From the NCBI GenBank assembly GCA_030525825.1, contig JAUNDZ010000010.1:1-57256 (forward strand): a stretch of DNA of 57,256 nt, read 5' to 3'. The first letter of the stretch is position 1. Each line of letters opens with the position of its first letter. The notes beneath the pieces were generated by a model. The model had not been told where the DNA came from. It made no database searches and saw nothing but the letters and a program-made list of their open reading frames with translations. The position numbers and the translations under genes are program-made. The DNA comes from Moraxella sp. (GTDB lineage: Bacteria > Pseudomonadota > Gammaproteobacteria > Pseudomonadales > Moraxellaceae). Positions 11,847 to 57,256 of the stretch are shown here, in pieces.

Positions 11847-11878
11847 AATGTTAATTTATAAAGACGGTTGGGACGGTA

Positions 11879-12277: not shown

Positions 12278-12310
12278 AATTATTTTACCACAACCATTGG
12301 AGGGGTAAAA

Positions 12311-12500: not shown

Positions 12501-12514
12501 AGGCGGAGGTAAAA

Positions 12515-13130: not shown

Positions 13131-13144
13131 AGAAAGAGGCAAAA

Positions 13145-13552: not shown

Positions 13553-13560
13553 GAAAACCC

Positions 13561-30633: not shown

Positions 30634-30653
30634 TCTAAATAGGAGTAAAGACA

Positions 30654-31001
30654 ATGCGTCGTATTTATCTTGGCTATTTTACAGAAACCGATAAAGACAA
30701 ATTGCACGAAGCTTTTGATATTTATGGTGAGTTCATGAAGGTTCTCGCCAAAGGGTATCTAGACCCAGGTGCATTTGAGATGTACACCAAGGAGGATAGC
30801 TCTTGGTTTTTTGATAGTTATGTTGCCCTACAAAACAACCTTCCATTTTATGTTGAGATGGAGAGGCTAGAAAAGCTTAACATCGACCATGTTTTTGGTG
30901 TTTTTTGGGTAAATTATGAAAACGACCTTGCATGCAAACAAGGCAAAATCCTAACCATTGTTGATGATTTCTATATTGAAAAGTTTCCTTGGGAGGATTA
31001 G
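30654..31001 (+). CDS. Candidate immunity protein 1
   Basis: A 115-residue soluble, acidic, aromatic-rich protein starting 20 bp after the tpsA stop with an AGGAG site. No family is recognised. Position directly after the CT is the standard place for a CdiI. It presumably neutralises the tpsA C-terminal toxin, a genetic inference. Confidence 0.6.
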   Translation: MRRIYLGYFTETDKDKLHEAFDIYGEFMKVLAKGYLDPGAFEMYTKEDSSWFFDSYVALQNNLPFYVEMERLEKLNIDHVFGVFWVNYENDLACKQGKILTIVDDFYIEKFPWED

Positions 31002-31022
31002 TGATGTAAACCTGCTTTTGTC

Positions 31023-32294
31023 ATGGCAAGTGCCGGCATGAGTCATAAGATTGATAAAGGACTGGGGTTAAAAGGAATAGACATTACTCAAACAGGCTTT
31101 AATGACAGAGTGATAAAAGCCATTGCTGATAGTACCAGCAAAAGTTTATTAGAATCTGCGGTTTATGGCACAAGCTTTGAGGAGAGTTTAAGAAATAATC
31201 TTAGGGGTCAGCTGGTTGGTGTGATTAGCCAAGAAGCGTTTCGTGGTATTGTTAAAGACTTAGATGGTGAGACATTAGGCGATAATATTGCTCATAAGAT
31301 CGCCGCTGGCATCACAGGCTGTCTGTCCGCCAAAGCCTCTGGTCATGCTTGCGATGCAGGGGTGATTGGTGCTACTATAGGAGAGATGTGGGGAGATTGG
31401 ATTACTGATGATCCCAATGAACTCACACCAGCACAAAAAGAAACCATCATCAATCAAGCCAAACTGATTGCAGGAATTGGTGCTGCCTTTGCTGGTGAAG
31501 ATGTCAATGCGGCTGCTGATATGGCGGCGGAGGCGGTGAGGTGGAATGGGCTAAAAGGTAAGGAAATAAAAGATTTTTACGATCAATATGACAAGTATTG
31601 CTCCGCAGGTCCTTCTACATCCTGTACATCAACAATCAATGAATGGAAGCGAGCTAGCTACAAACATGCCAGTATGACTTCTCAAGAAATTACCGTTTGG
31701 GAAGATGGTATTACAACAATGATTGAGCACTACAAAAAGCAATGCAAAAGTGATTCTTGTCATAAACACTTAAGATCACAAAAATACCGATACATGATTG
31801 AATATGCAGGCAACCCTGCTATCTTTTATCAGCTGGAGAGCACACTTGTTACCTATATCCACGGACCTTTTGCTAATATACAAATGGTGGGAGCTCATCT
31901 TGCAGGTTCTTTAGTGGAGGCTTATAATGTGGTTTCACGAAATTCCATAAAACAGAATCGCCCCACTATCAATATAACAAAGCCTAAAAAACCATTAGAT
32001 GATGCAATACGAACCTCTATTCGTCGATTTGAACTTACTGGACAGAAGCCCAATGCTGTATTATATAGGCAGGATAATGATGGCACTATCACAAGCTACG
32101 CAGTATACGATAGTAAAGGCATGATTCTTAAGCGTGTTGATATGAAAGGTGCAGCTCATGGAGGCGTTCCCACCCCTCATGTGATAGAATATGGTAGAAA
32201 TTACCTACCTAATGGTGAAATCAAGGTGCATCGTCCTAGAGGCAATCCAAGACCTGCTAGACCAGATGAAATTCAATATATTAAGGAGGACTAA
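31023..32294 (+). CDS. Orphan toxin cassette A: pretoxin plus CT toxin
   Basis: A 423-residue frame without signal peptide or ribosome site of note, beginning MASAGMSHKIDKGLG inside a DUF637-like region, so it is a displaced 3' part of a tpsA. The pretoxin region (to ~residue 175) carries the repeated GDWITDDPNELTPAQKETII segment and ends AEAVRWN. A Cys-rich linker follows, then a C-terminal domain with RVDMKGAAHGGVPTPHVIEY and RPARPDEI, which resembles polymorphic toxin type 24 RNase-like domains. It would be used after recombination onto the full tpsA. Immunity gene at 32298. Confidence 0.75.
   Translation: MASAGMSHKIDKGLGLKGIDITQTGFNDRVIKAIADSTSKSLLESAVYGTSFEESLRNNLRGQLVGVISQEAFRGIVKDLDGETLGDNIAHKIAAGITGCLSAKASGHACDAGVIGATIGEMWGDWITDDPNELTPAQKETIINQAKLIAGIGAAFAGEDVNAAADMAAEAVRWNGLKGKEIKDFYDQYDKYCSAGPSTSCTSTINEWKRASYKHASMTSQEITVWEDGITTMIEHYKKQCKSDSCHKHLRSQKYRYMIEYAGNPAIFYQLESTLVTYIHGPFANIQMVGAHLAGSLVEAYNVVSRNSIKQNRPTINITKPKKPLDDAIRTSIRRFELTGQKPNAVLYRQDNDGTITSYAVYDSKGMILKRVDMKGAAHGGVPTPHVIEYGRNYLPNGEIKVHRPRGNPRPARPDEIQYIKED
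31386..31547 (+). repeat. Pretoxin repeat copy A
   Basis: About 162 bp from ATGTGGGGAGATTGG through AGGTGGAAT, encoding the segment MWGDWITDDPNE…AEAVRWN. Near-identical copies are at 32822, 33983 and 36834. These are the likely recombination sites that swap toxin ends. Confidence 0.85.
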
Positions 32295-32297
32295 ATA

Positions 32298-32759
32298 ATG
32301 TTTACCAATAATTGGAAATTTAAAAAATGGCAACAAGAAATGCGAGAGTCTATATATAATTCAGATTCTAGTTTGCGTGCCTACATAAATCTGGAAATAT
32401 ATCCCGAAGATATAGAGATTTTTCTTAATGTATTAACACCAAAAATTTTTGAAATAGGAGATAGGATTTTTTTTGATATAGATGGTGAACGAGAAATAAT
32501 TATTAGAGAGAATTATAGCAAAAACGACCCCCTTGACAGATCTGATTCGGAAAGACAGAAAGACTGGAATTCCACAAATGTTGCAGAAATATTTTTTAAT
32601 AATATGGACAACTCTTCCAATGAAACCATAATGAATATTGCAAACCTAATTAAAAGCAACTGGGAGTACTATCTACTAAATAAATATCCTGATACAAAAT
32701 TTACTGTAGAAATTTATGGGGAATATTTTGAACCTTGGGTGACATTTTATCAGCCGTAA
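32298..32759 (+). CDS. Candidate immunity protein A
   Basis: A 153-residue soluble, very AT-rich gene starting 4 bp after cassette A. The protein is acidic, with an Asp/Glu/Ile-rich centre (YPEDIEIFLNVLTPKIFEIG). No family is recognised. Placement predicts neutralisation of the cassette A toxin. Confidence 0.6.
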   Translation: MFTNNWKFKKWQQEMRESIYNSDSSLRAYINLEIYPEDIEIFLNVLTPKIFEIGDRIFFDIDGEREIIIRENYSKNDPLDRSDSERQKDWNSTNVAEIFFNNMDNSSNETIMNIANLIKSNWEYYLLNKYPDTKFTVEIYGEYFEPWVTFYQP

Positions 32760-32821
32760 AACCAATAATTTGTCAACATTTAATGAGTTAACTTAATAGA
32801 GGATATCAATCTTAGTGAGGC

Positions 32822-32983
32822 ATGTGGGGAGATTGGATTACTGATGATCCCAATGAACTCACACCAGCACAAAAAGAAACCATCATCAATCAAGCCAAAC
32901 TGATTGCAGGAATTGGTGCTGCCTTTGCTGGAGAGGATGTGAATGTTGCTGCTGATATGGCGGCGACTGCAGTAAAGTATAAT
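32822..32983 (+). repeat. Pretoxin repeat copy B
   Basis: Same segment as copy A and nearly identical until the end, where AVKYN replaces AVRWN. Differences cluster in the last ~20 bp, at the VENN-like junction. Confidence 0.85.
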
Positions 32984-33553
32984 AGCTTAAAAGTAATTTC
33001 AAGCATTGGAAGAGCGTTGGTAAAAAGCCTTGATGAGTTAAATGTAATTAGAAAATCAGGCAAGACAATTAATATTTCTGATTTTACAGAATTGCTGAAA
33101 AAACAGGGTAAAGATGAGTTGCTTGGTATAGCAAATAATATTTTTACTATTTTTAATGGCGATGCAAATTATGTGGATAAAATTTTGGCAGCAGTTGATT
33201 TAGCATCTGGGCTAGATTTCAATAAAAGTAAGGGAGAGGCTGCAAATTTATTAAAAGATGCTCAAGCACTTAGAAGACAGTCAGAGATTGCATCCAATGT
33301 TATAAAAGCCAACAAATACAAACCCGCCGATCATATCATCAAGCAAGCATCTCAAAATGCGATTGAAATGGCTAAAGGCGGGAAGATAGACAAGGTGGAC
33401 GAGTTGGTTGCAAAATTTGGTGGGGATCGTAACTCATGGAAAAAAATGAAAGGTAAAGATAGTCAGGGCAGAGAATGGCATTGGTATACACGAGGTGATG
33501 GTTCAAAAATTGGCTGGAAAATCAAAGGTGTTCATTTGCATGATCCTTTTTAA
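32822..33553 (+). CDS. Orphan toxin cassette B
   Basis: A 243-residue frame that begins exactly at the repeat (MWGDWITDDPNE), so it has only the last part of the pretoxin region, ending ATAVKYN. The middle (NSLKVISSIGRALVKSLDEL… LLKKQGKDELLGIANNIFTI) is homologous to the corresponding region of the tpsA CT (SLKLLSSTGKVLVKVYQGY… LLKKQGADELVGMAVDLYTI), a shared delivery/entry module. The C-terminal ~60 residues (KGKDSQGREWHWYTRGDGSK IGWKIKGVHLHDPF) differ and would be the toxin. No enzyme family recognised; His/Trp-rich end suggests a nuclease. Confidence 0.7.
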   Translation: MWGDWITDDPNELTPAQKETIINQAKLIAGIGAAFAGEDVNVAADMAATAVKYNSLKVISSIGRALVKSLDELNVIRKSGKTINISDFTELLKKQGKDELLGIANNIFTIFNGDANYVDKILAAVDLASGLDFNKSKGEAANLLKDAQALRRQSEIASNVIKANKYKPADHIIKQASQNAIEMAKGGKIDKVDELVAKFGGDRNSWKKMKGKDSQGREWHWYTRGDGSKIGWKIKGVHLHDPF

Positions 33554-33571
33554 CCTAGAGGGTAATTTATC

Positions 33572-33967
33572 ATGAAAGTAAAGTTAAAATCACAGCTTTT
33601 ACCACATTGGCACATCCGTCATTTGCAAGCTGATAAAATTCATGAAGTAATTGAGGTTGGATTTAGGTACTATAGACTTATTGGTGGTTGGGATAACAAA
33701 CCTTATCTGTATGACAAAAGAGCGTTTGATATTATAGATCCTAGTATACCGAATGATTGGGTGTATGAAGTATATACAGAAGATATTGGTGAAGCATATC
33801 AAGATCCAGATGTAGAAGAGATGATTTATCAGGATTTTATAGAAGAGTATTACATAATACCTAGATGCTTTACAATATATAGAAATTTTTTTGAAAGATA
33901 CCATGACGACGACCCTGAGTGCATTAAGATTTTTAATGAGTACATAAAAACAAATAACATACTCTAA
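33572..33967 (+). CDS. Candidate immunity protein B
   Basis: A 131-residue soluble protein starting 19 bp after cassette B with an AGGG-like site. It is rich in Tyr and acidic residues. No family is recognised. Expected to protect against cassette B's toxin. Confidence 0.55.
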   Translation: MKVKLKSQLLPHWHIRHLQADKIHEVIEVGFRYYRLIGGWDNKPYLYDKRAFDIIDPSIPNDWVYEVYTEDIGEAYQDPDVEEMIYQDFIEEYYIIPRCFTIYRNFFERYHDDDPECIKIFNEYIKTNNIL

Positions 33968-33982
33968 CCATGTCTATTAAAT

Positions 33983-34090
33983 AAAACCATCATCAATCAA
34001 GCCAGACTGATTGCAGGAATTGGTGCTGCCTTTGCTGGAGAGGATGTGAATGTTGTTGCTGATATGGCGGCGGAGGCGGTGAGGTGGAAT
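33983..34090 (+). repeat. Pretoxin repeat copy C (truncated)
   Basis: Begins inside the unit (AAAACCATCATCAATCAAGC) and ends AGGTGGAAT like copy A, so the first ~55 bp are missing. Confidence 0.85.
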
Positions 34091-34936
34091 GCATTATCCG
34101 AAAAGTTATTATCTGACTTTATTAGCGAGTTTGAAAAATGCAAAGAGGCTGACTTGAACTGCCAGCAATCTATAGTTAATCAATTCATAGATCGGTCTCG
34201 GCATTACGACAATCTTATGGTTCAAGAATGTTCATCAAACACCAGAGGTAGTGCATGTTCCAACTTAATTAAACCATCTCTAAATTACAGCGGAGACTCT
34301 CTTCCATTAAAATCATTAATAAATGAAAAATCCAAAAATGAGATCATAATGAAGAACCTCAGTAAGGATATAGCTAGAAGTAGAAAAGTAGTCTTACAGC
34401 AGATATTTAATAATCAAGAAATATTTAATAATATTAACACCATAGAAAGCAGGGCTGATTTTTTTGATGCGATGTCAAAAGAATTTCCAAAAGCCAAATG
34501 GTTTGCTGGAGCTAGTGATGTTTCAAGGCGGTGCTTGACCGGTTTGGGTGCTTCTAGGTGTTATATTTTTGGAACAATACCCCTACATTCAAATGTTACA
34601 TTTCTTTCAGGATCTTTCGCTTCTTGGCATACTAGTGGTACTAAATGGAGAAGAGAGGCTGGGCAAGCATTGATGGCTGATGGTTACAGAGATTTTAAAA
34701 GACTATGGCAAGGTGAGGTGGTGGATTATAGGCAATGGGATATTGATCGCTTAGTTCAAGAACAAACTATCTTAGACCCTATACATAAAAAACATATTAA
34801 TGGTTCTTTAATATTTACATTACCTCCTAAATATTTTACCGGCTCAGGAACTGTTGATATGACAAATCTTCAAGACAGGATACGCTATGGTTGTTTGATG
34901 TTGGGTTATACTTATACTAATGGGGTCTGCAGATGA
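34046..34936 (+). CDS. Orphan toxin cassette C
   Basis: A 296-residue frame starting inside the truncated repeat (MNVVADMAAEAVRWN). The ATG is internal, so it is silent unless recombined onto tpsA. The first ~80 residues after RWN have a Cys-pair pattern (CKEADLNCQQSIVNQFI) loosely like cassette A. The C-terminal ~170 residues (from RADFFDAMSKEFPKAKWFAG) are unrecognised and end with Cys residues (YTYTNGVCR). Overlaps a membrane protein gene by 4 bp, which is the strongest hint that the toxin acts at the inner membrane. Confidence 0.65.
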   Translation: MNVVADMAAEAVRWNALSEKLLSDFISEFEKCKEADLNCQQSIVNQFIDRSRHYDNLMVQECSSNTRGSACSNLIKPSLNYSGDSLPLKSLINEKSKNEIIMKNLSKDIARSRKVVLQQIFNNQEIFNNINTIESRADFFDAMSKEFPKAKWFAGASDVSRRCLTGLGASRCYIFGTIPLHSNVTFLSGSFASWHTSGTKWRREAGQALMADGYRDFKRLWQGEVVDYRQWDIDRLVQEQTILDPIHKKHINGSLIFTLPPKYFTGSGTVDMTNLQDRIRYGCLMLGYTYTNGVCR

Positions 34937-35670
34937 ATCAGTCTAACGGTGATGCACTGGATGTCAAGATAGATAAAGTAACAGCCATATTATCAAGAAA
35001 AGCTAAAGAAGTTGGAAATTATTTGTCTAACACTACTATTATTTTTGTATTTGCATGGCTCTGCTTTTTATTCAATTTCTTTGTATTAAGTGATATATTT
35101 CTTATTTATAAGAATTTAATTATATTCTTTACTTTTCTTTTAATATTCTCATTTTCCTTGATTACTATAGATATACTAAATTATTATGCAAAAACAAATC
35201 TGGTATCGTTTTTATTTTTAATATTGCTATTTTCTTTTAGAAAATTTGCCATATATACTTTAACTCATGATGGAGAAACCTATGATTTTTCTAGAGGGTT
35301 CATTGTTGGTAATTTTTTCTACTACATAGCTCCATTTGCGTTATTGCCATTCTTTGCATCTTTTATATCAGAAAATATAAAAAATACAAAGAAAATATCA
35401 TTGGGAATTGCTGCACTATTGTTTTATTTTCTTTATGAATATACTATTGATTTATTGAATATCAGTTATGAAGAAATGATTAAGGGTAATTCACTCTATT
35501 TGGTGAATATTCAATCATATATTTATTCATTATTAATTTTTTTCTTTTTCAAAAAAAATGTAAAATATAAAAAGACTAGATTTTTGTGTTTCATACGCAA
35601 TAGGTACATCAAATTATTTATGTCCATCCTTGGCTTACCTATATTTATATTATTTTTTCTGTTTGCCTAA
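34933..35670 (+). CDS. Membrane immunity protein for cassette C
   Basis: A 245-residue protein with about six or seven membrane helices (e.g. IIFVFAWLCFLFNFFVL and LIIFFTFLLIFSFSLI). It overlaps cassette C by ATGA at 34933-34936. CDI immunity proteins with several TM helices normally protect against toxins that attack the inner membrane, so this gene is best read as the cognate CdiI. The low GC and isolated context suggest recent acquisition. No family recognised. Confidence 0.65.
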   Translation: MNQSNGDALDVKIDKVTAILSRKAKEVGNYLSNTTIIFVFAWLCFLFNFFVLSDIFLIYKNLIIFFTFLLIFSFSLITIDILNYYAKTNLVSFLFLILLFSFRKFAIYTLTHDGETYDFSRGFIVGNFFYYIAPFALLPFFASFISENIKNTKKISLGIAALLFYFLYEYTIDLLNISYEEMIKGNSLYLVNIQSYIYSLLIFFFFKKNVKYKKTRFLCFIRNRYIKLFMSILGLPIFILFFLFA

Positions 35671-35747
35671 TATTCAATATGGTAACATTTGTATTTACAA
35701 ATTGTAGATCAAGATTGAATTTATTAAGTTGGGTAGGTATAAGATAG

Positions 35748-35846
35748 GTGGTTAGCCTTGTGATTAAAGAGTCATCAGGAATGATTCAAAGATTTGATCC
35801 TTCAACAGGAAAACTAGTAACAATTAAAAATTGGACAAGGCGATAA
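35748..35846 (+). pseudogene. Tail fragment of a lost toxin
   Basis: A 32-codon open stretch, in frame from GTG 35748, ends MIQRFDPSTGKLVTIKNWTR, a typical CdiA-type C-terminal tail (D-P-S-T-G-x-L-x-T). No start or pretoxin is attached, so it is the residue of a deleted toxin. Confidence 0.5.
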
Positions 35847-35848
35847 TC

Positions 35849-36133
35849 ATGATTAAAATTAAAACCCCAATCCATGCCACAGTATATACCAAAGAAATGC
35901 AGAGAGACCCTTTGGATTTTATGGCACGATTGCAGCATTTTTGTGAAAATTTTCTAGAATTATTGCCAGAAAAGTGTGGTTTTAGCAATCCAAAAACACC
36001 ATTTGAATTAAATCAATCGGTATTACTTCCTAAAGACCGCCAAGGTGCAGCAGATACTTTATATTGGCAACGAAGTAAAAAGATGCGTGCCTCTAGTATT
36101 TTTTCCCATCTTAGCCTGTGCAGGAGTTATTAA
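35849..36133 (+). CDS. Possible truncated immunity gene
   Basis: ATG 35849, 2 bp after the tail fragment's stop, opens a 94-residue frame (MIKIKTPIHATVYTKEMQRD…). The N-terminal ~75 residues look protein-like; the last 25 are probably out of frame, since another frame (36045-36275) takes over. It may be the cognate immunity gene of the lost toxin, now disrupted. Confidence 0.4.
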   Translation: MIKIKTPIHATVYTKEMQRDPLDFMARLQHFCENFLELLPEKCGFSNPKTPFELNQSVLLPKDRQGAADTLYWQRSKKMRASSIFSHLSLCRSY

Positions 36134-36275
36134 AACACAAGGGAAAAATGGAGAATCCATCATTACTTACGGTCTCGGATCATCGCAAATTAATGCCTCT
36201 ACTGGCGGTATGAGAAAAACAAATATAATTTTAAGCAAAAATGAAATACAAAAATGGCTAAAAAGTGGTAGATAA
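36045..36275 (+). pseudogene. Tail fragment of another toxin
   Basis: The frame continues GVIKTQGKNGESIITYGLGS then RKTNIILSKNEIQKWLKSGR to a stop, again a CT-like end without pretoxin. The first part overlaps the 35849 frame and is not credible. It is followed at 36277 by an immunity-like gene. Confidence 0.45.
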
Positions 36276-36276
36276 A

Positions 36277-36801
36277 ATGGAAAAATTTAATAAGGTTATG
36301 TCATTTCTTGTGGGTAGTTTTTGTATAATTATTTTCTTTGCATCATATAGAGGTATGCACGAGGAAGAAAGTAGATATCCAGAATTGTATAAAAAAACCA
36401 TATGGATAGACATGCCCACTTTTGAAAAACTAGAGGAATTATTAGTACCGATTACTATTTCCACTACCCAGCATATAGACAAAAAAGACCATTTTAAAAA
36501 GATTGGTTCTTCCATATCTATCAGTATTAAGTACACCAATCCAACCCAAGAAACCGTCGACAAAGTGTTTGGTAATATTAAGAAACAGAATCTTTGGGAA
36601 TTGGTTAATCCACCAGAACCAACGGAAGATTATAAAACTTTTCGCCATCACTTTTGTTATGGTGAGTACAGCCTAATTGTTAGCGACCATATACATACCC
36701 CCAACATATTTGAAAATACACAAAATACAAATTTTGTTATTTATCTTTTTTGGAACCAGTCAAGTTTTTGTAGAAAAAAGGCAATATATAGGTCTAATTA
36801 A
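36277..36801 (+). CDS. Candidate immunity protein D
   Basis: A 174-residue protein with an N-terminal signal/TM segment (VMSFLVGSFCIIIFFAS) and a soluble C-terminal domain with two His-rich segments. It starts 1 bp after the preceding tail fragment. Likely the leftover immunity gene of that toxin. Unrecognised family. Confidence 0.5.
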   Translation: MEKFNKVMSFLVGSFCIIIFFASYRGMHEEESRYPELYKKTIWIDMPTFEKLEELLVPITISTTQHIDKKDHFKKIGSSISISIKYTNPTQETVDKVFGNIKKQNLWELVNPPEPTEDYKTFRHHFCYGEYSLIVSDHIHTPNIFENTQNTNFVIYLFWNQSSFCRKKAIYRSN

Positions 36802-36833
36802 CCACTAAGGAATAGTACCACAATAGATAAAAT

Positions 36834-36918
36834 ATGGGGAGATTGGATTACTGATGATCCCAATGAACTCACACCAGCCCAAAAAGAAACCATCATCAAT
36901 CAAGCCAGCCTGATAGCA
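36834..36918 (+). repeat. Pretoxin repeat copy D, ending at tpsB
   Basis: About 85 bp matching the first half of the repeat (GGGGAGATTGGATTACTG and on to AATCAAGCCAG), with one small deletion near its start. It ends within 50 bp of tpsB, so it is the fossil right-hand end of the array. Confidence 0.85.
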
Positions 36919-36963
36919 GGGATGAAACATTGCCATAAATCAATACAAGCCACAAGGTCAATC

Positions 36964-38880
36964 ATGATAAACAAAAGCCAATCCTACTTCACCCTACTTT
37001 CTGTCAGTATTTTTTATACTGACATTGCAAGTGCTACTGCTTTTACAGACTTTCCTGCGACAAGTGATCCATACCATATAATGACCGAGATGGTGCAAAA
37101 ACAGCGTGATTTAGAACTTTTGCACCAGCATCAGCAAGATTTTTACATCAATAACACCCCAATGGATATAACTAATCAATTGGCAAATAGCTCTTTACAA
37201 ACCACTCCCTCCACCACCAATCCCAACTGGACGCCAGATACAGACGCACCCTGTTTTAAACTTCAGTATATTTCTTTAACGACTGGCAATCTTAATGACC
37301 CAGCAAGTCAATCAATAGATGAGAAATCTTTTTACCCAATTTTAAACCCATTACTAGACAGCACAAAATCCACCTACGCTCTTAATCGTTGCCTAAATTC
37401 ACACAATCTGTCCCTTATTAGTCACATTGCCCATAATGAATTACTCAAACTGGGGTTTTTAACCAGTAGTATCAGCATACCCGAGCAAGACATTTCAACT
37501 GGCAAGTTAATCTTAAGCATTGATATCGGCAAGGTAAATGAAATTTTAACCCACAAGAAAGATGGGGAACAAATTACCAATAATCGTTTTATTCGCCAAG
37601 CTCTGCCCATAAAGTCAGGTCAGGCACTAAGATTATCTGATTTAGAACAAGGAGTGGATAATTTAAAAAAGATTGATGACAAAGCACAAATACAAATTAT
37701 CCCAGCAGCCAGCATAAATCAACTCGGGTTTAGTGATTTACAAGTCATCATGAATAGAATCAAAAGTAGCGGTATGGATTTTATGATAGATGATAGTTTG
37801 TCACGGACGGATGGTAAGTATTTAACAAGCCTATCTTTAAAAGCAAACAATCTAATGCACTTGAATGATGAATGGGTGCTTACTGCCAATTATCCGTTAA
37901 AAAGACTGATTAGTTCAACCAAAGGTGATACACTGACACATCTTGATAATGATAAACAATTAAATTACCAAGCAGGTCTGTCTTTTTATCAAGGGTTTTA
38001 TAAATTTGGCATCACGCATGGAGTAAGTGAATATGAAAGATTTGTGGCAGGCTTTCATGCACCACTTCGTTATCACGGTCATTCAAAAACTTTGACAATT
38101 AATCTAAATCGCCTACTACATCGAGATGCGACACATAAAACCGAAGGATATATAAAAGCTCATCATAAAAATAGTCGTCATTTTATTGATGATATTGAGA
38201 TTGAGGTGCAGCGAAGACGCACGACAGGCTGGAGTGCTGGCATTATTCATCAACAATACTTTGATGATAACGCTTATTTATACGCCAATCTAGAATACAG
38301 ACGAGGCACAGGAGCTTTAAAGGCACAACCTGCACCCGAAGAGAGTATTTACAACGCCTTTGGACAACAAATGCCCGCCGAAGGATATGCTCGAGCACCC
38401 ATCTGGACATGGTATCTACATTATCAAAAACCAATGCAATTAAACTCGCCAAAACAATACCCCATTCATCTCACCCACAACATCAAGAGCCGAGGGCAAT
38501 ACGCCAAACAGCTTCCTACATCACAGGATAAATATTATCTTGGAGGTCGAGATAGCATGAAGGGCACAAAAGAAGGCATTTATATTTCTGGTGAACATGG
38601 TGCCAATATATCCTATGAACTCTCCTACCAACTGCCCTATCACAATAAACGACACAACGGCTTTTTATATATAAACTTCAGCAAAGGGATGGTATGGAAT
38701 AGCAATGTCGATAAAACCCAGCACCATATGGCGGCGGCTGCCATAGGCATTCGCCATAGCCACCAGTCGTCATCAGGATGGCAGGTATACTCAGATATTT
38801 TTATTGGCAAGCCTTTATCTACACCCAATTTTATACAAAAACAGACCACCACAGGTCTTAGCATAGGCATTACTTTTTAA
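36964..38880 (+). CDS. TpsB outer-membrane transporter of the CDI locus
   Basis: ATG 36964 (a longer frame starts at 36922 inside the repeat) gives a 638-residue protein with a signal peptide (MINKSQSYFTLLSVSIFYTD then ASATA). A POTRA region follows (FKLQYISLTTGN… LGFLTSSISIPEQDISTGKL, LSIDIGKVNEI), then a barrel ending in Phe (STPNFIQKQTTTGLSIGITF), with LGGRDSMKGTKEG. TpsB proteins export the TPS domain of TpsA. It is intact, unlike tpsA. The 22 kb between them is not typical; in most systems tpsB is next to tpsA. Confidence 0.85.
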   Translation: MINKSQSYFTLLSVSIFYTDIASATAFTDFPATSDPYHIMTEMVQKQRDLELLHQHQQDFYINNTPMDITNQLANSSLQTTPSTTNPNWTPDTDAPCFKLQYISLTTGNLNDPASQSIDEKSFYPILNPLLDSTKSTYALNRCLNSHNLSLISHIAHNELLKLGFLTSSISIPEQDISTGKLILSIDIGKVNEILTHKKDGEQITNNRFIRQALPIKSGQALRLSDLEQGVDNLKKIDDKAQIQIIPAASINQLGFSDLQVIMNRIKSSGMDFMIDDSLSRTDGKYLTSLSLKANNLMHLNDEWVLTANYPLKRLISSTKGDTLTHLDNDKQLNYQAGLSFYQGFYKFGITHGVSEYERFVAGFHAPLRYHGHSKTLTINLNRLLHRDATHKTEGYIKAHHKNSRHFIDDIEIEVQRRRTTGWSAGIIHQQYFDDNAYLYANLEYRRGTGALKAQPAPEESIYNAFGQQMPAEGYARAPIWTWYLHYQKPMQLNSPKQYPIHLTHNIKSRGQYAKQLPTSQDKYYLGGRDSMKGTKEGIYISGEHGANISYELSYQLPYHNKRHNGFLYINFSKGMVWNSNVDKTQHHMAAAAIGIRHSHQSSSGWQVYSDIFIGKPLSTPNFIQKQTTTGLSIGITF

Positions 38881-44738: not shown

Positions 44739-46190
44739 TTATTCTGCGGTGGGAATGTCCCCACACACCACCTCACTCACCTCACCTCCTAACAGCTCTT
44801 TAACCATCACCTTGCCACGCTCAACATCGACCGAAACCACCTCAAAAGGTATGGGAATCATACGAAAAAACATCACCTCAAACCGCTGCCCAGCTTCAAC
44901 ATGACGGCACGCCTGCTCATGTATCAGCCAAGAGCCGCCGATTTGTCGACCTTGCTCATCAATATAAAATCCTTTGCCGTCCTTACTGACTTCCACCCTC
45001 CCTTCATCAAAGAAACTTATGTTATCATAAACGATGTCAATTATAGGCTTGCCATCAATATTAAAAACGCCATATTTCTCGCCCAACTGCACATGAATCC
45101 TACCATCATTTTTATAAAATGGTATCAATACACTATCATACTCTGGTGGTATGATAGATTTACCCGTTTTATCAATCACTCCATACTTCATGCTACTCTG
45201 AGATTCATCATGCTTATCCAAGCTTTCAACCCTGTTAGCCACTTCTGCCAAACCATGATTAAATCCAAATGCTAACTTATAGTCAAAATCAACCACCACC
45301 TTGCCAGTTTGGTCAATATAGCCGTATTTGTCATCTTTTATAGCCGCTGCCAAACCATCTTTAAACTCATGAATGGCATCGTACTCAAAATCAACCACGA
45401 CCTTATTTTGTTTATCCACCACACCCCATTTGTCATTTTTCGCCACAGGGAACAGCTCTTCGGTTATATTGTCAATATCATCATATTCAAAAGGAATGAT
45501 TTTTTGCCTGCGACTGTCAATCACACCCCATTTACCATCTCTTTTAACCATCAGATATTCATCAGGATAGGTGCGTTTAAATTCATCAAACCGCTCAATT
45601 AAGCGATGCTGACGGTCAATTAATCGCACTTGATTGTCTTTGGTTGCAAGAAAATAATCAGCAAAACTTTCAATGTCTTCATATTCAAAAGGAATAATCA
45701 CATTTTCTTGATAATCCAACACGCCAAAAAGCCTTGATGTGGCATTCGTTGGGTTATCTCTCGTGATGATTAACCCACCCACATCCTTAAAATGCTCGTA
45801 TTTTGGTGGTATCAATATATTGCCGTCATTATCCATCAAACCCAGCTTATGATTTTGCCATATGGCATAAGTATCGTCCGTATCTGGCATAATAGCATCG
45901 TAATCCATTGGCAATACGACCTTGCCACTGCGGTCAATCAAGCCATATTTTTCACCATCAGACACTCGAAACAGTTTATCGTTTAATCGTGCCATATGGC
46001 GATACTTTGGCGTAAGGATTGAACGACCGTCCGCATCCACCAGACCATGATGAGTATCTTTATAAGAAATCGCCATGCCGTCTTGCACACAACCCACCCA
46101 ATCATAATCCCCCAAAGGTGGTCTGTCGCACGCCTGTGCTGATGCTGCCATCATCACGACAGATAGAGCCAATAATTTTAAGATTTTCAT
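44739..46190 (-). CDS. Secreted WG-repeat protein
   Basis: A signal peptide (MKILKLLALSVVMMAASAQA) is followed by about nine or ten WG-type repeats, such as KWGVIDSRRQKIIPFEYDDI and KYGYIDQTGKVVVDFDYK, each a small beta-hairpin. Start ATG 46190 is chosen because GGAG is 8 nt upstream (GTG 46193 is also in frame). The protein is 483 residues. WG-repeat proteins are poorly understood; binding to peptides or surfaces is suspected. No partner gene is visible. Confidence 0.8.
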   Translation of the reverse strand: MKILKLLALSVVMMAASAQACDRPPLGDYDWVGCVQDGMAISYKDTHHGLVDADGRSILTPKYRHMARLNDKLFRVSDGEKYGLIDRSGKVVLPMDYDAIMPDTDDTYAIWQNHKLGLMDNDGNILIPPKYEHFKDVGGLIITRDNPTNATSRLFGVLDYQENVIIPFEYEDIESFADYFLATKDNQVRLIDRQHRLIERFDEFKRTYPDEYLMVKRDGKWGVIDSRRQKIIPFEYDDIDNITEELFPVAKNDKWGVVDKQNKVVVDFEYDAIHEFKDGLAAAIKDDKYGYIDQTGKVVVDFDYKLAFGFNHGLAEVANRVESLDKHDESQSSMKYGVIDKTGKSIIPPEYDSVLIPFYKNDGRIHVQLGEKYGVFNIDGKPIIDIVYDNISFFDEGRVEVSKDGKGFYIDEQGRQIGGSWLIHEQACRHVEAGQRFEVMFFRMIPIPFEVVSVDVERGKVMVKELLGGEVSEVVCGDIPTAE

Positions 46191-46348
46191 CACAACTCTC
46201 CTTGACTACTTTGCAATGTCTTTTTAAAGCACTTGGCTTATTGTCCATGAAATATAGCACATCCCTAACCGCAAAAACAGCAAAAACCATAGCATTTCAT
46301 TAAAATATCCGCTATAATACAGTTTTTCATTTTAACTTTATTTAACTT

Positions 46349-50110: not shown

Positions 50111-50493
50111 CACCAATCCTTATCGCTCATGACCGATGGGCGATTTTTTTGGCGTAATTTCCACCCATCATTACTTTTTTTAAACCACCCAAATATACCC
50201 GATAGCCCAACTATCACTCAAAAAAATCAGCAATACGCCCCTCAAAACAAATTGACAAATAATCATTATCAGTTACAATATGGCAATGAGAAATAAAGGG
50301 AATACTACCATCAGCAACATTGATGGATGTTTTGGTCATAGGTTTGGTGAAATTAACAAGATTTCACTTTTTTAAGGTTTATAAATGTAAATAATTCTCT
50401 TTTGTGCTTAATATCTTTCTTACATTAGTGAATGGTGTGCTTTATTTCTCAATCACAATCACCCATAAAAAACCAACCACCAAAAGGACAATC
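50111..50493. other. Gene-free stretch with the iron-regulated promoter
   Basis: This 383-bp gap lies between the DUF815 gene and TonB receptor 1. It contains the Fur-overlapping promoter at 50252-50279 and otherwise AT-rich sequence with no coding frame. Confidence 0.7.
50252..50279 (+). promoter_or_regulatory. Promoter with Fur-box-like overlap, receptor 1
   Basis: TTGACA (50252-50257) and TACAAT (50274-50279) are 16 bp apart, and the 19-mer at 50252-50270 ends AATCATTATC, matching 13 of 19 consensus Fur-box positions by my count. A repressed promoter under iron-rich conditions is implied. Confidence 0.6.
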
Positions 50494-53020
50494 ATGAACA
50501 ACCAACCAATCACACACCCCCATCCGCAGACACGCCTATCATTGCCTAACCTTGGCGGTGCTGACGGTGCTATCACAGCAGGCATGGGCAGATGATGACG
50601 ATCCGTCTGTTACCCTAGATGCCATGACGGTTACTTTAAATAGACAGCCCACCGAGCAGCTTGGCGAGACCATCACCACTCGCAAAGAACTTGACACACA
50701 AAATATCCAAAACGCCCAAGACCTCGTCCGCTACAACACCGAAGTCGATGTGGCGGAAGTGGGTCGTTATGGCAATAAAGGTTTTGCCATTCGTGGGGTA
50801 GATGGCAACCGTGTGGCGATGAACATCGATGGGGTGGCACTGCCTGAGGTGGAGAGTAATGAGCTGTTTTCTCCTTATGGTTATATTTATGAAGGGCGGT
50901 TTAATCCAGACTTAGAGATGATGGGTGGTGTGCGTATCGCTGCTGGTGCTGACAGCCTACTATCAGGTTCAGGGGCGGTGGGTGGCTCGGTATCTTACCG
51001 CACCAAAGAGCCTGCCAGCATGGTCAAGGGCGATGGCAATCTGGGTGGTTATGCCAAAGTCGGTTACACCACCAAAAATGAAGAATTATTGACCGCCGCA
51101 GGACTAGCAGGGGTGTGGGATAAGGCAGAATTTCTGCTAAACTATTCACACCGCAAAGGGCATGAACTTAAAAACCATGGCATGCGAAGCTATAATAAAG
51201 AGCGTGAATATAATATCAATTATGATTTTGCAGGCAATGGTGAGCTGGGTCGAGCCTCACAGCCACAATCCGCCTTTTATCCTGACAGTCTAACCTATAA
51301 GCGTGATGCTGTGCTGGGTAAGTTTTATTACCATCTGAATGATGAGCATCGTATCGGAGCACAGGCGATTTACCAAAAAACAAAAACACACTCTTATGCG
51401 TACAGCAAAAGTAGCAGTGCTGGCTATCGTATGCCAGACGATGTCGAAGAGCTAAAAAGCTATGGTTTAAATTATCGTTTTACCCCACAAAACAGCTCAT
51501 GGCTAAACAGTCTTGATGCCAAATATCAGTATCATGATGTGCTGGGTTTGGCAGATACTTGGGTGTACTCTGGCCATCCGACACGCATTCTGTCTCGCCG
51601 AGAGTATCGTCCCACCGAAACCCAAACCCACCAATTTAGACTAGATGGCAAACTTAATCCCATAGACTTCGGTAAACTTGGCTCACATCAAATCACAGCC
51701 AGTGCCATCTACAACAAACAAGACTTTAAGCAAACCAATGTCTCGGTTGGCTACAACAGTGCTGGTGAAATTAGTTGGGCCACTCAGCCATACATCATGG
51801 TTTTTCCTGATGCCAAAAAAGACCAGCTTAGCTTTATTTTGTCAGATGATATACAGTTTAATGACCGTTTTAATGCCAAGTTAGGACTGCGTTACGACCA
51901 TCATACGGTCGCTCCATATTTTCAAAACGACACTTACTTTGGCGACGAGCAAAGCAATGAGCAAAACGAAATTGCCAAAAATATCAACTCCTCCACCAAG
52001 TTTTATACCGATTATCGAGCTGGTGTATACCACCAAAAACCTAAGTTTGATAAGCTGACTTATAGCGGACTGTTTGACTATGAGTTAATCCGTGATAAGC
52101 TCACCGCTCGTTACAAAGTTGGCACAGGATTTTTAGCACCTAATGTTACACAAATGTACTCTGCTTTTCAGGGTATGGGTGTCATGCAAATCGTCAATCC
52201 AAGCCTAAAACCAGAAACCTCAGTCAATCACGAGTTAGAGTTAGAATTTAAGCCTGATGATGTATGGACTTTGACAGGCTCAGTCTATCAAAGCGACTAC
52301 AAAAACTTTATCTACACAAGCTACTGGGACAGATGGGATAACCGAGCTAAGTCTAACAAATGGAGCTGTAATAGTGGTAGTACCTGTATTTTATCAGAAA
52401 ACCTAAATGATGCCCAAATCAAAGGCTACAAACTGGGCGTGCGTGCCGATGTCTCAAAATACTTAGGCACCAATGATAGAATGTATCTGACGCTAGATTA
52501 TCACAAATCCAAAGACAAAGCCAAAGTGGTCGCCGACCAAGAAGCTGATGGCATACTAGAAATCAATACCTTAGCAGCGGTGCCCAGTAGCACCATTTTG
52601 GGCGTGGATTACCACTTTGGTAATGATGACAAAGCCTCACTACACTTTAAGGCGAAATTCACCGAAGCCAAACGAGCCGATGAGACCAAATATGTCAAAG
52701 CCGTTAGCGACCGCTCTCGTGCCAGCGGTTATCGGGAAGAAGTGGCGACTTACGACCACCTAAACCGCCTAAAAGATACTTGGGTGTTTGATGTCTACGG
52801 CAACTACAAAATCGCCAAAAACTTAACCTTACAAGCAGGCATCTACAATCTGACCGACCTACGCTACTATCCATGGGAGAATATGAGACAGTTTGGTAAT
52901 AACCCAAGCATCAATAACTTTGTGGATTATAGTTCCACTCGTGGCGGTGCAGGTCATGGCTTCAACCGCTACACCGCACCGGGTCGTAACTATGCTCTAT
53001 CGCTAACTTACGAATTCTAA
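50494..53020 (+). CDS. TonB-dependent haem/haemoprotein receptor 1, frameshifted near the start
   Basis: An 820-residue outer-membrane receptor in one frame from 50552. The plug (LRYNTEVDVAEVGRYGNKGF AIRGVDGNRVAMNIDG) and the barrel (ending YALSLTYEF) are haem/haemoglobin-receptor-like. The proper start is probably ATG 50494; that frame breaks in a C5 run at 50517-50521. Deleting one C yields MNNQPITHPIRRHAY… with a good signal peptide (LTLAVLTVLSQQAWA). As written the receptor has no signal peptide, so it is off or phase varied. It is preceded by a Fur-type promoter and followed by an SLP/Slam pair. Confidence 0.85.
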
Positions 53021-53035
53021 CACCAATTGCACAGC

Positions 53036-53059
53036 AAAAACCCATTTCGATGGGTTTTT
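53036..53059 (+). terminator. Terminator with a UUCG loop
   Basis: A perfect 10-bp stem AAAAACCCAT (53036-53045)/ATGGGTTTTT (53050-53059) with a TTCG loop, the most stable tetraloop type, follows receptor 1. Confidence 0.9.
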
Positions 53060-53068
53060 GTTTTTTAT

Positions 53069-53123
53069 CTTAATGATAATTATTTTTATTATTATTGACA
53101 ATATTAATAATGACTACTATAAT
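53069..53123 (+). promoter_or_regulatory. Strong promoter and Fur-box-like site, lipoprotein gene
   Basis: A perfect TTGACA (53095-53100) and TATAAT (53118-53123) with 17-bp spacing. A Fur-box-like 19-mer at 53069-53087 matches about 14 of 19 positions. Together they give strong, iron-responsive transcription of the lipoprotein and Slam genes. Confidence 0.7.
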
Positions 53124-53182: not shown

Positions 53183-55249
53183 ATGAAAAAGCTACAACTC
53201 ACACTACTAGCTACCAGTTGTGCAGTAGCATTGACCGCCTGTAGTAGCAATAGTACTACAGCCGCCAAACCCACCACCCCAAGTGTTATTCCAGCCGTTA
53301 GCACTGCCGAACAAGCCACAACCGCTACTGCTGAGGCAGCCAAAGCCAAGCAAGCTGCTACAACTGCCAGTAATGCCGCCACTTCTGCTGCTGCCCAGAC
53401 CCAGCTTGACATCGCCAAAGCAGCTCTAGCCAAAGCCCAAACTGCCGCTACTGACGCCAAAGCCAAAAACCCCACCAGCGATGACACCAAAAAAGCAGAA
53501 AATGCCGTCAAAGAGGCACAAACGGCAGTAACACAAATTGAGGCAAAAGTCCAAGAACTTAAACAAAAAGAAAGTGCCGATGCAGCTGCCCAAGAACAAG
53601 CCGAAAAAGAGCAGATTGTTACTGACGCATTGACAAGTGCCACCAGTGCCAGCACCAATGCCCAAGCCGCCAAATTAGCAGCAGAAAACGCCAAAAATGC
53701 CGCCATCAGTGCCACCGATAAGGCAACCGCCCAAGCCGAACTGGCCAAAGCCAATGAGGCACTTGCCAAAGCCGAACAAGCCGTCAAGGACGCACAAAGT
53801 GCCTTAGATAAAGCCAAAGCCGCTTTGCCAAGCAGTCCAAAAATCGCCCAAATCCAAGCCCAGCTTGATGCCGCCAAACAAGCAAAAACCGCCATCGAGA
53901 CTGCCAAAGCAGACATTCAAAACAAAATCAACTCAATCTCCGACACACCAAAGCCTGCGGACACCACTGCAGTGGATAATGCCATCAGTAGTGCCACAAA
54001 GTCTGCCGCTGCCGCTGACAATGCCAAAAAGACAGCAGATGAGAAAAACGCCACCGCCACCACCGCCGTCAATCAAACCCAAACCAAACTTGACCTAGAA
54101 AAACAAAAACAAGCTGAGGTTAAGGACAAAAACGATGCTGAGCTCAATGTAGAGGCTGCCGAAGATGCAGTAGAAACCAGCAAACAATCCCAAACCGTTG
54201 CTAATGAGGCAAAAGCAGCCGCCCACGAGGCTCTAACACAGGCTCAAACAGCCAAAGCAGATGCTGAAAAAGCCCTAGCAGAGGCAAAAAAAGCAGGCGT
54301 TAAAGAAAGCGAGGCTCAAAAGCTCCTAGATGAGGCAAATGCCAAATTAGCAGCCGCCCAGACTGCCCTAAACACCGCTAATGCCAATGCCGCTAAGGCA
54401 GACACGCTCGCAAAAGAGGCAAACACCTTAAAAGAAAAGGCCGATGCCAAACTCAAAGAGTTTGATGGTACTACCCCACCGCCATCATCTACCGATACCA
54501 CCCCAACACCAGAGGCATTTAAAGCAGCATTAGATCAAAGTTTTGAGAGTAAAAAACTAACCACCACCAGAACAGGCGAATATCAAGAATTAACCACCAA
54601 AGATGATGGCTTGTGGAGTGCTTATCACACCTCATTAATCTCAGTAAATTCTGATGGCAGTGTTATTGCTACCTCAAACCCTTATGACGCAGAAAATAAA
54701 CCATCACTAAATAAAATCAGAATCAATGGCGTAACCATCAGCATCGACGATACACAAGGCAGACCAGCCATCATTGAAACTGACAATCTACCAAATGGCT
54801 ATCAAGCTGGTGCAAGTGGTGCGTTCTCATCTTTGCGTTACGGTGTACTGGTGGATAATAACAATGCCAGCCATCTGTATGTACATGGTGAACCGTACTC
54901 AGCATATCAATTAGCAGCAACTACCAACAAAGACATTTATTCATTTAAAGGTCATGCCATCATCGGTAAAGATGGTAAATACAGAACGCTGGACAATAGT
55001 CTAACCGCAACTGCCAACTTTGGCACCGACATTATTGACATCAGTATTCAAGATGGCAGTAACACCTTAGAGTTTGGTGGCAACATTAATGGCAACACTT
55101 TCTCTGGCAGTCGCAATGGTGTGGACACACGAGGAGGATTCTTTGGTGGCTACGCAGCAGGAATACAACTGGGTGGTGTCTTTAATGTTACTGAGGGTGC
55201 ATTAAAAGGCAATCATGGTGTTTTTGGTGGCTCGGGCACCAAACAATAA
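53183..55249 (+). CDS. Slam-dependent surface lipoprotein with long coiled coil
   Basis: A 688-residue lipoprotein. The signal peptide (MKKLQLTLLATSCAVALTAC) has lipobox LTAC with Cys at 20. Residues ~40-425 are an Ala/Lys/Gln-rich coiled coil of irregular heptads (e.g. AKAALAKAQTAATDAKAKN); the DNA is correspondingly repetitive. A Thr/Pro linker (~430-445) leads to a C-terminal barrel (~450-688) with TbpB/HpuA-like features: GNINGNTFSGSR, TRGGFFGGYAAGIQLGGVF and the end GVFGGSGTKQ. Slam-linked SLPs capture host iron proteins and pass iron or haem to a TonB receptor. The coiled-coil stalk is unlike typical SLPs. The gene is coupled to slam. Confidence 0.8.
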   Translation: MKKLQLTLLATSCAVALTACSSNSTTAAKPTTPSVIPAVSTAEQATTATAEAAKAKQAATTASNAATSAAAQTQLDIAKAALAKAQTAATDAKAKNPTSDDTKKAENAVKEAQTAVTQIEAKVQELKQKESADAAAQEQAEKEQIVTDALTSATSASTNAQAAKLAAENAKNAAISATDKATAQAELAKANEALAKAEQAVKDAQSALDKAKAALPSSPKIAQIQAQLDAAKQAKTAIETAKADIQNKINSISDTPKPADTTAVDNAISSATKSAAAADNAKKTADEKNATATTAVNQTQTKLDLEKQKQAEVKDKNDAELNVEAAEDAVETSKQSQTVANEAKAAAHEALTQAQTAKADAEKALAEAKKAGVKESEAQKLLDEANAKLAAAQTALNTANANAAKADTLAKEANTLKEKADAKLKEFDGTTPPPSSTDTTPTPEAFKAALDQSFESKKLTTTRTGEYQELTTKDDGLWSAYHTSLISVNSDGSVIATSNPYDAENKPSLNKIRINGVTISIDDTQGRPAIIETDNLPNGYQAGASGAFSSLRYGVLVDNNNASHLYVHGEPYSAYQLAATTNKDIYSFKGHAIIGKDGKYRTLDNSLTATANFGTDIIDISIQDGSNTLEFGGNINGNTFSGSRNGVDTRGGFFGGYAAGIQLGGVFNVTEGALKGNHGVFGGSGTKQ

Positions 55250-55323
55250 CCATTCGCCAAACACAAGTAAATTTGAGCGGCTTAGGCTGCTCAAATTTTT
55301 AATGTTAAAACCAAAAGAATACC

Positions 55324-56763
55324 ATGAAACCACATCTATTTTACATTGCCATTTTATTTACTGCACCAGTATTTGCCAACACTCCAGAGCCAAATATTCC
55401 AGACAAAACAGATATCTACCAGCCCATGCCAGAGCCACAAAAGCTCGCGGACACTCCGCCAAAAGACGCTGCCCAGCAGATGGCACTAGATGTCAGCGAG
55501 CAGGATTTATTAAACAACCCTCCCCTACTGCAACAGGCATTGTATGCTTCTGTACTTAATAATCATGTCAATGCCATTGCCCTATTATTGCCTCTATACG
55601 AGCAGCTCCCCAGCGAATACCACGCAGGCAGTAATAACGAAATGCTATTACTGCTTGCTCGTGCCAGCCTCGCCAAAGAAAACGGCAAGCACCTTGATGC
55701 TATTGGTTTTTATAAAAAGGCACTCGCCCAAGACCCAAACATTCATGCCGCTCGCTTTGCTTTGGCACAGAGTTTTTTTAATGACAAACAATACCGCCAC
55801 GCCAAAGCAGAGTTTGATAAACTCAAAGACACCCCAAACCTCCCCCAAGAGATACAAGTCGCCATTGGATACTATTTGGGTGCCATTGACAAAAAAGACG
55901 ATTGGCAAATCAGCATAAGTGGCAACTACACCCAAGACAAAAACATCACCAACAGCCCAGATTATAAAACGGTCAATTTTGGCTATGGCGAATGGACACT
56001 ACCCAAACAAGAATCCGCACAAGGACTATCTTATCAGCTAAGTGCCAGCAAAGACATTCATCTTGATGGACGCTGGCACACCAAAAGCGAATTTGACCTC
56101 TATGGCAAATGGTACTGGGACAATCACGACTATGATGACATGACTGTGCGTGCCTCGTCAGGCTTATCCTACCAAACCGCCAAACACGAGCTTGCCATCA
56201 CGCCCTACTTTGAGAGGCGTATTTATGCCGATAATGGCTACTCTCGTGAAATGGGCGTGCGTGGCGAAATTAGCACCCATCTTACCAATCGCCATCGCCT
56301 CCGCCTCTTTGGCGAATATGGCAATGAAGACTATGACGACCGCCCTCGCCTAGATGGCCATCGCAGACAAGCAGGAGCGTCATGGCTATGGCTCCAAAAC
56401 TCCAAACAATACTGGACACTGTCGGCAGATTTTAGCCATAAAGACGCTCACGACCTATCAGAGGCGTATTATCGCCGCAGCCTAAGGCTAGGCTGGGTAC
56501 ACTCATGGGGTAACACCAACACCGCTTTATCACTGAGTGTCGCTCGCAGACACTTTACCGACCCCAAAGTCATGTTTTTGGTACCGACCATTCATCGCAA
56601 AGACATGGAATATCATACCAGTTTATCCATTTGGGATAACCGCATTAGCTTTTGGGGCATCACCCCTCGTCTGGTTGGCACTTATCAGCGAGTGGACAGC
56701 AACCACCCTTTTTATGATTATGACAAACATCATGTCTTTGTACAGCTTTCCAAAAGTTTTTAG
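55324..56763 (+). CDS. Slam (surface lipoprotein assembly modulator)
   Basis: A 479-residue outer-membrane protein with a signal peptide (MKPHLFYIAILFTAPVFA). Residues ~60-170 form TPR-like helices (e.g. LLLARASLAKENGKHLDAIG, ALAQSFFNDKQYRHAKAEF). The C-terminal ~285 residues are a DUF560-type barrel beginning WQISISGNYTQDKNITNSPD and ending in SKSF. Slam moves surface lipoproteins across the outer membrane; the SLP before it is its probable client. It lies 74 bp after that gene. Confidence 0.9.
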   Translation: MKPHLFYIAILFTAPVFANTPEPNIPDKTDIYQPMPEPQKLADTPPKDAAQQMALDVSEQDLLNNPPLLQQALYASVLNNHVNAIALLLPLYEQLPSEYHAGSNNEMLLLLARASLAKENGKHLDAIGFYKKALAQDPNIHAARFALAQSFFNDKQYRHAKAEFDKLKDTPNLPQEIQVAIGYYLGAIDKKDDWQISISGNYTQDKNITNSPDYKTVNFGYGEWTLPKQESAQGLSYQLSASKDIHLDGRWHTKSEFDLYGKWYWDNHDYDDMTVRASSGLSYQTAKHELAITPYFERRIYADNGYSREMGVRGEISTHLTNRHRLRLFGEYGNEDYDDRPRLDGHRRQAGASWLWLQNSKQYWTLSADFSHKDAHDLSEAYYRRSLRLGWVHSWGNTNTALSLSVARRHFTDPKVMFLVPTIHRKDMEYHTSLSIWDNRISFWGITPRLVGTYQRVDSNHPFYDYDKHHVFVQLSKSF

Positions 56764-56802: not shown

Positions 56803-56863
56803 TTGACATTATTAACATTATTACTATAATGTATCATATCTCTCAATAATGATAATCATTATA
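56803..56863 (+). promoter_or_regulatory. Promoter with near-perfect Fur box, receptor 2
   Basis: TTGACA (56803-56808) and TATAAT (56825-56830) are 16 bp apart. The 19-mer AATAATGATAATCATTATA at 56845-56863 matches the Fur consensus at 17 of 19 positions by my count. The site lies just downstream of the -10. Confidence 0.85.
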
Positions 56864-56898: not shown

Positions 56899-57256
56899 AT
56901 GACTACCAAACCCCAATTACCATCTTCTTATCGCTATCTTTCCTTGGCGATACTTGCTGTTTTGTCGCAACAAGTGTGGGCAGATGAGAGCCATGATGAT
57001 GAACCGACCGTAGTTCTGGATGCTTTAACTGCTACCATAAACAGAAAACCCGCCGAACAGGTAGGCGAAACCATCATCACTCGCCGTGAGCTTAACGAGC
57101 AAAATATCCAAAACGCCCAAGACCTCGTCCGCTATAATACCGAAGTTGATGTGGCAGAAGTCGGTCGCTATGGTAATAAGGGTTTTGCCATTCGTGGCGT
57201 GGATGGCAACCGTGTGGCGATGAACATCGATGGGGTGGCACTGCCTGAGGTGGAGA
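56899..57256 (+). CDS. TonB-dependent receptor 2, 3' end off the window
   Basis: ATG 56899 after AGGAAGGA gives a signal peptide (…LSLAILAVLSQQVWADESHD) and a plug whose segment VDVAEVGRYGNKGFAIRGVD is the same as in receptor 1. At the DNA level the shared part is nearly identical, so it is a paralogue. The barrel lies beyond the right edge. Unlike receptor 1, its frame is open from the start codon. It belongs to the same iron-regulated island. Confidence 0.85.
   Translation, partial: MTTKPQLPSSYRYLSLAILAVLSQQVWADESHDDEPTVVLDALTATINRKPAEQVGETIITRRELNEQNIQNAQDLVRYNTEVDVAEVGRYGNKGFAIRGVDGNRVAMNIDGVALPEVE

Follow-up and report, generated by a model that had tools for sequence, protein, structure and literature searches.

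A Slam-adjacent lipoprotein with an alanine-rich helical region between two TonB receptor genes in Moraxella sp.

Organization of the locus

A locus encoding a predicted surface lipoprotein (SLP), a Slam protein and two TonB receptors was analyzed in Moraxella sp. (GenBank assembly GCA_030525825.1). The whole stretch of DNA analyzed, hereafter the window, comprises 57,256 nucleotides (nt) and corresponds to bases 1–57256 of the 69,572-base contig C2 (JAUNDZ010000010.1); the assembly consists of 1.82 Mb in 45 contigs and is 89% complete. Two open reading frames (ORFs) could be confirmed, namely an ATG-initiated lipoprotein ORF of 688 amino acids (aa) and a Slam ORF of 479 aa (Table 1). The latter, an outer-membrane protein of the type XI secretion system (T11SS), scored above the cut-off against both PF04575 (262 bits) and PF24575 (93 bits). 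The gene order on the forward strand was receptor 1, lipoprotein, Slam and receptor 2, and a preliminary description of this DNA had correctly placed the Slam gene directly after the lipoprotein gene and a TonB receptor on either side. Among the loci read, this order was found only here. The lipobox, the C-terminal eight-stranded TbpB-type barrel and the adjacent Slam gene are features expected of a Slam-dependent surface lipoprotein (T11SS cluster 1 cargo), and the long helical region ahead of the handle position and barrel is that of 'Pls-like' cargo.

Table 1. Positions of the locus features in the window
Feature	Position	Strand	Evidence
Surface lipoprotein gene, 688 aa	53183..55249	+	ORF, translation, composition
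Signal peptide and lipobox with Cys20	53183..53242	+	Translation
Ala/Lys-rich helical part, residues 38–428	53294..54466	+	Composition and predicted structure
Handle/pedestal position between helices and barrel, residues 440–584	54500..54934	+	Predicted structure
C-terminal eight-stranded barrel, residues 585–688	54935..55246	+	PF01298 match at 54947–55231 and model
Slam (T11SS outer-membrane protein): TPR domain and SlipAM barrel	55324..56763	+	PF24575, PF04575
TonB receptor 1, 822 aa from TTG, haemoglobin/transferrin/lactoferrin class	50552..53020	+	TIGR01786, 388 bits
TonB receptor 2 start, paralogue of receptor 1; continued past a 100-N gap outside the window (L011:7359-9548)	56899..57256	+	TIGR01786
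Sigma-70-type promoter-like site, 11/12, before receptor 1	50252..50279	+	Consensus match
Fur-like site, 14/19, overlapping the receptor 1 promoter-like site	50258..50276		Consensus match
Terminator-like hairpin, receptor 1/lipoprotein gap	53033..53062	+	13-pair stem, then T run
Fur-box-like site, 15/19, weak	53075..53093	+	Consensus match
Sigma-70-type promoter-like site, 12/12, 17-nt spacer, before lipoprotein	53095..53123	+	Consensus match
Terminator-like hairpin, 13-pair, lipoprotein/Slam gap	55269..55298	+	Hairpin scan
Sigma-70-type promoter-like site, 12/12, 16-nt spacer, before receptor 2	56803..56830	+	Consensus match
Fur box, 17/19 (2 mismatches)	56845..56863	+	Consensus match

Signal peptide and helical region of the lipoprotein

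The lipobox LTAC with Cys20 was read off the translation by eye and was also picked up with a simple pattern. Residues 40–427 (388 residues) contained 30% Ala and 13% Lys and were devoid of Arg, Trp, Tyr, Met and Cys. Periodicity analysis of A/I/L/V/M revealed a period of approximately 3.4–3.5, which exceeded 1000 of 1000 composition shuffles in segments 100–214 and 260–427 and 998 of 1000 in the whole stretch. Segment 40–95 was not above composition (68 of 1000 shuffles as high), and segment 219–253 gave no signal with A/I/L/V/M (277 of 1000 as high) while I/L/V/M alone exceeded all 1000 shuffles. Polar residues gave no periodicity signal across the whole stretch (525 of 1000 shuffles). Thus the helical pattern exceeds what composition alone provides, though unevenly.

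Helices were predicted at residues 38–95, 100–175, 180–214, 219–251, 261–371 and 375–428, the longest spanning 111 residues. The preliminary description had proposed a coiled coil of about 385 Ala/Lys-rich residues that could raise the barrel above the capsule or glycans. The term is fair in the sense of a helical region, but a single extended coil is doubtful, as is a rigid spacer that holds the barrel far out. The low-confidence model breaks the helices near residues 95, 175, 214, 251–261 and 371, and Pro97, Pro216, Pro219, Pro256, Pro258 and Gly372 coincide with these predicted breaks. The good-scoring fold matches of the region were antiparallel bundles and hairpins, although at a score level which, according to the tool, is common for helical models. 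A fully extended rod of approximately 58 nm projecting the barrel is therefore quite improbable, despite the length of the predicted helices and the helical periodicity of two segments; such a rod concerns shape only and would be compatible with any of the functions weighed below. It is more probable that the modelled helices double back on themselves as bundles or hairpins.

Handle and barrel of the lipoprotein

When the last 249 aa were compared with PF01298 (TbpB_B_D), a score of 34 bits was obtained against a cut-off of 26; PF01298 matched the ORF once. Searched at full length, the protein had no hit in Pfam or NCBIfam up to E 1, probably because of its biased composition. Structure prediction of the barrel, proposed earlier as a check, revealed eight strands at residues 585–687, with NHBA as the best fold match followed by fHbp, HpuA and TbpB, and two further strands were predicted in the handle region (551–558 and 561–569). 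The preliminary description was correct in calling the barrel TbpB/HpuA-like.

Compared by itself with the sequences of solved structures, the barrel had a single match, at E 1.2, and a seven-sequence profile returned clear matches. Scanning of the genome contigs with the barrel alone produced 50 pattern matches and zero confirmed relatives, and no match at E <= 1e-3 was present in 72,556 plasmid records. A search with an alignment of ten Psychrobacter barrels (A2) found 14 loci, all of them in Psychrobacter. In a tree of 52 barrels, the window barrel fell into a group that also holds the 37 Psychrobacter barrels and another long branch; its support of 88/80 is below the threshold for a sure branch. 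The nearest BLAST match was a small SLP of the same genus (60 bits, 29% identity), the best Psychrobacter match reaching 51 bits. Given this support and this nearest match, no common origin is claimed for the stalked forms.

Related proteins among Moraxellaceae

The lipoprotein was matched in 20 of 299 Moraxellaceae genomes including that of the window, and 16 of the 20 were Psychrobacter. In the other 19 genomes the matches lay only within residues 503–687 and none reached the helical part; since searches of this kind hardly register sequence of biased composition, uniqueness of the stalk is not claimed. Fourteen loci from the 16 Psychrobacter genomes were read. A Slam could be identified by profile in all 14 (in L087 as an edge piece only), and each contained one or more barrel ORFs in which Ala made up 45% or more of a 100-residue stretch. 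A lipobox pattern was present on the Ala-rich barrel ORF in 12 of the 14 loci and absent in L086 and L090, whose ORF runs to the contig end. The barrel proteins of these loci were up to 2663 aa long with up to five strong barrel matches. The layout of the window protein recurs in a 557-aa protein (L092:656-2329), in which a lipobox and an Ala-rich, helix-like stretch precede a single barrel at the C-terminus; it is separated from its Slam by two further barrel proteins. Within the same genus, a 627-aa protein adjoining a Slam (L071:9804-11687) has a PF01298 barrel of 57.5 bits and an N-terminal Ala/Lys-rich stretch of at most 24% Ala per 100 residues. Only at the window was a long, Arg-free and non-repetitive Ala/Lys helical part seen together with a single barrel and a paralogous receptor on either side.

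Several further observations were made on these relatives. In Psychrobacter proteins (L079-L092, L174-L187), several TbpB-type barrels alternate with Ala-rich stretches, whose Ala content per 100 residues reaches 54%, and a Slam is present in the locus. A Slam-adjacent lipoprotein of the same genus with an Ala-rich stretch (L074:1675-3237) was dropped as a stalk-and-barrel case, having zero PF01298 matches. Some relatives had genes split over several ORFs, namely a small SLP (L018:8349-9060), a receptor (L153:7903-10425) and a Slam (L077:7069-8343), and intact copies occurred in other species.

Flanking TonB receptors

Receptor 1 (388 bits) and receptor 2 after its gap (338 bits) both exceeded the TIGR01786 cut-off of 323.75, the in-window piece of receptor 2 alone scoring 69 bits. 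The 100 N inside receptor 2 lie directly past the window end (L011:7257-7356) and are probably a scaffold gap, which may account for the window ending at this point. The solved relatives of receptor 1 were PhuR and TbpA. The two receptors were 82% identical in their first 101 residues and 53% identical from residue 103 to residue 822, which makes a duplication likely.

Receptor homologues at E <= 1e-60 were found in 27 of 298 Moraxellaceae genomes, a count that includes the genome of the window. Twenty homologue loci were read, from 20 of the 26 other genomes, in stretches of up to 18 kb, some of which ended at contig ends. A haem oxygenase gene lay near seven of these 20 receptors (three of the seven checked with Pfam). 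A Slam accompanied by a receptor is a common arrangement: an ORF similar to receptor 1 was present in 12 of 25 other same-genus loci read, the best pieces being 28–35% identical. Two receptor homologues (L155:261-5534 and L167:9896-12869) have both a haem oxygenase and an Lcl_C-domain protein (PF07603) in their vicinity, the latter perhaps being another type of partner in this family; the neighbours in L158, L159 and L168 look similar.

Promoter-, Fur- and terminator-like sites

Fur-like sites lay within 15 nt of each of the three promoter-like sites. Only the Fur box at 56845 was well above chance, with a mean of 0.01 sites expected at three or fewer mismatches. For the site at 53075, a shifted version (53072–53090) had a chance expectation of 0.12 in another scan. 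Counting both strands, the window holds seven 14/19 Fur-like sites. Since the scan yielded 25 promoter-like and 17 terminator-like sites in total, compared to 13.0 and 9.1 in shuffles, single sites may be due to chance.

Comparison with known systems

Among the titles listed in a literature search, none concerned this locus or an Ala-rich Moraxella Slam client. Passages of a 2025 study (PMC12282271) describe 'Pls-like' T11SS/Slam cargo, a group with 173 lipoprotein and 20 soluble members in which a long helical repeat precedes the handle and barrel. Pls itself (Haemophilus parahaemolyticus, exporter TepS) is likewise a lipoprotein with a long helical region before the handle and barrel and a genomically associated T11SS/Slam. 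In Escherichia coli, one Pls-like member was undetected at the surface without the T11SS protein, some of it being found in vesicles, and was displayed on approximately 40% of cells with it, according to the same passages. The display of Pls was thus shown to need its T11SS protein, whereas that of the window protein is predicted. The helices also differ, those described there being built of EEARKA repeats, while the window stretch lacks Arg and hence this motif. Furthermore, the SLP-Slam pair of the window is flanked by two TonB receptors, unlike Pls. The earlier statement that a stalk of this kind is absent from known Slam clients is contradicted by these Pls-like cargo and by the Ala-rich barrel proteins of the Psychrobacter Slam loci. 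A helical stalk joined to a barrel is not a new design either, being already in print and common in the sister genus Psychrobacter. The passages of PMC12282271 mention multi-barrel Psychrobacter proteins with PTD repeats and do not mention Ala-rich helices in them; the window protein departs from the architecture given there (PTD repeats, several handle-barrel pairs) with one PF01298 match and zero PTD.

The Psychrobacter proteins read here (L079-L092, L174-L187) resemble the window protein in their Ala-rich stretches, TbpB_B_D barrels and Slam in the locus. Most of them are larger and multi-barrelled, and their loci lack a receptor-1 match; the 557-aa protein of L092 has short tandem repeats, whereas the helical part of the window protein is non-repetitive. 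The N-terminal region of NHBA is disordered and not helical, unlike that of the window protein, and NHBA is not known to be an iron co-receptor. It is placed under immune evasion in passages of PMC5449769. The HpuA-HpuB and HphA-HsmA-HphR systems, like the window, pair a barrel protein with a haem-class TonB receptor, although they have one receptor and the window has two. To our knowledge, neither HpuA nor HphA has a helical stalk. The HphA gene has a Slam beside it, as stated in a passage of PMC8560813.

Proposed role of the lipoprotein

On balance, we lean towards a Fur-controlled, Slam-displayed co-receptor, which would capture a haem- or iron-protein on behalf of the TonB receptors at its flanks, the Ala-rich part serving as a folded spacer. 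The lipoprotein would be exported by Sec, lipidated at Cys20 and carried to the outer membrane, from where the Slam encoded just downstream would move it to the surface, as the rules of this family lead one to expect. The C-terminal TbpB-type barrel would be the export-linked part, and the Ala-rich helices, arranged as antiparallel bundles or hairpins, would space the handle-barrel domain from the lipid anchor. Once displayed, the protein may bind its haem- or iron-protein and work together with one or both receptors.

Several points weigh against such a co-receptor. Residues 454–547 of the handle were poorly modelled, and in fold the barrel resembles NHBA most closely. In its own frame, receptor 1 can start only at a TTG, which leaves it a very short leader, and has no ATG with a full leader; the nearest ATG (50494) is in another frame and runs into stops (window 50494–50620), while the leader of receptor 2 looks normal, so the receptor 1 gene may be disrupted or misassembled at its start. 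The terminator-like hairpins, together with the separate promoter-like sites, point to transcription in more than one unit. Neither a Slam nor a barrel lipoprotein occurred at any of the 20 homologous receptor loci (ORFs of at least 100 aa), so the proposed partnership with the receptors rests on one genome. Conversely, no ORF of the 14 Psychrobacter loci matched receptor 1 or haem oxygenase, which indicates that stalked barrels there do not need such receptors.

The same NHBA match and the same separation of receptors and stalked barrels in both sets of loci speak for the main rival, a Slam-displayed adhesin, biofilm protein or host-factor binder like NHBA, the Pls-like or the Psychrobacter proteins, which lies between the duplicated receptors by chance, for example after insertion of an SLP-Slam pair beside a duplicating receptor gene. 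The naming of the Pls-like group after a biofilm protein (passages of PMC12282271) also agrees with such a role. We regard this binder as possible but less likely, considering that receptors stand on both sides, that a Fur-like site, albeit a weak one, precedes the promoter-like site of the lipoprotein, and that TonB receptors occur in 120 of 185 Slam clusters in the account given in PMC5449769. Iron uptake from transferrin or lactoferrin, with the lipoprotein as a single-lobe TbpB/LbpB, appears improbable. The barrel does belong to the TbpB family, and receptor 1 matches the TbpA/LbpA model with 260 bits; this is below the cut-off of 469, as is the score of receptor 2. The window's genome encodes two proteins with two TbpB-type barrels each (C35) and a receptor far above this cut-off (994 bits, C42) adjoining a second Slam, so transferrin/lactoferrin uptake seems to be handled by other loci, and haem or a haem protein would be the likelier substrate of this one. 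The haem oxygenase genes near the homologous receptors also speak against transferrin or lactoferrin, and the window's genome itself has a haem oxygenase (C25). The most speculative and least probable idea concerns the hairpin at approximately residues 305–430, the model of which resembles the hairpin that binds the receptor in colicins E2, E3 and E9. This part of the protein would dock on the receptors on either side; one lipoprotein might then serve or link both paralogues with its barrel domain holding the host protein, and the helical part would not be a passive stalk.

Other features of the window

A WG-repeat protein was predicted at 44742–46193 (PF14903, 213 bits, six stretches), and L011:18922-19347 looks similar by eye. 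A two-partner secretion (TPS) locus at 25726–38877 resembles contact-dependent inhibition. It contains a TPS/DUF637/PT-VENN protein (25726–30630), a second ORF with DUF637, PT-VENN and Ntox24 (31023–32291) and a ShlB-type transporter (36922–38877), and the small ORFs in between are guessed to be possible immunity genes. Phage-like genes at 1–14000 gave short matches of 81–89% identity to Mcat-series phages (at least eight of nine records), the host being M. catarrhalis in all nine.

Biological meaning

The window protein is a local variant of a design known from related bacteria. If its helical part serves receptor-linked capture, helical Slam cargo, of which one tested member has been compared with a biofilm protein (passages of PMC12282271), would be extended to iron uptake, and the locus would offer a compact setting for asking how much N-terminal cargo one Slam passes. 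If not, it would still be a case from the Moraxella family of a conserved export barrel joined to very different N-terminal parts.

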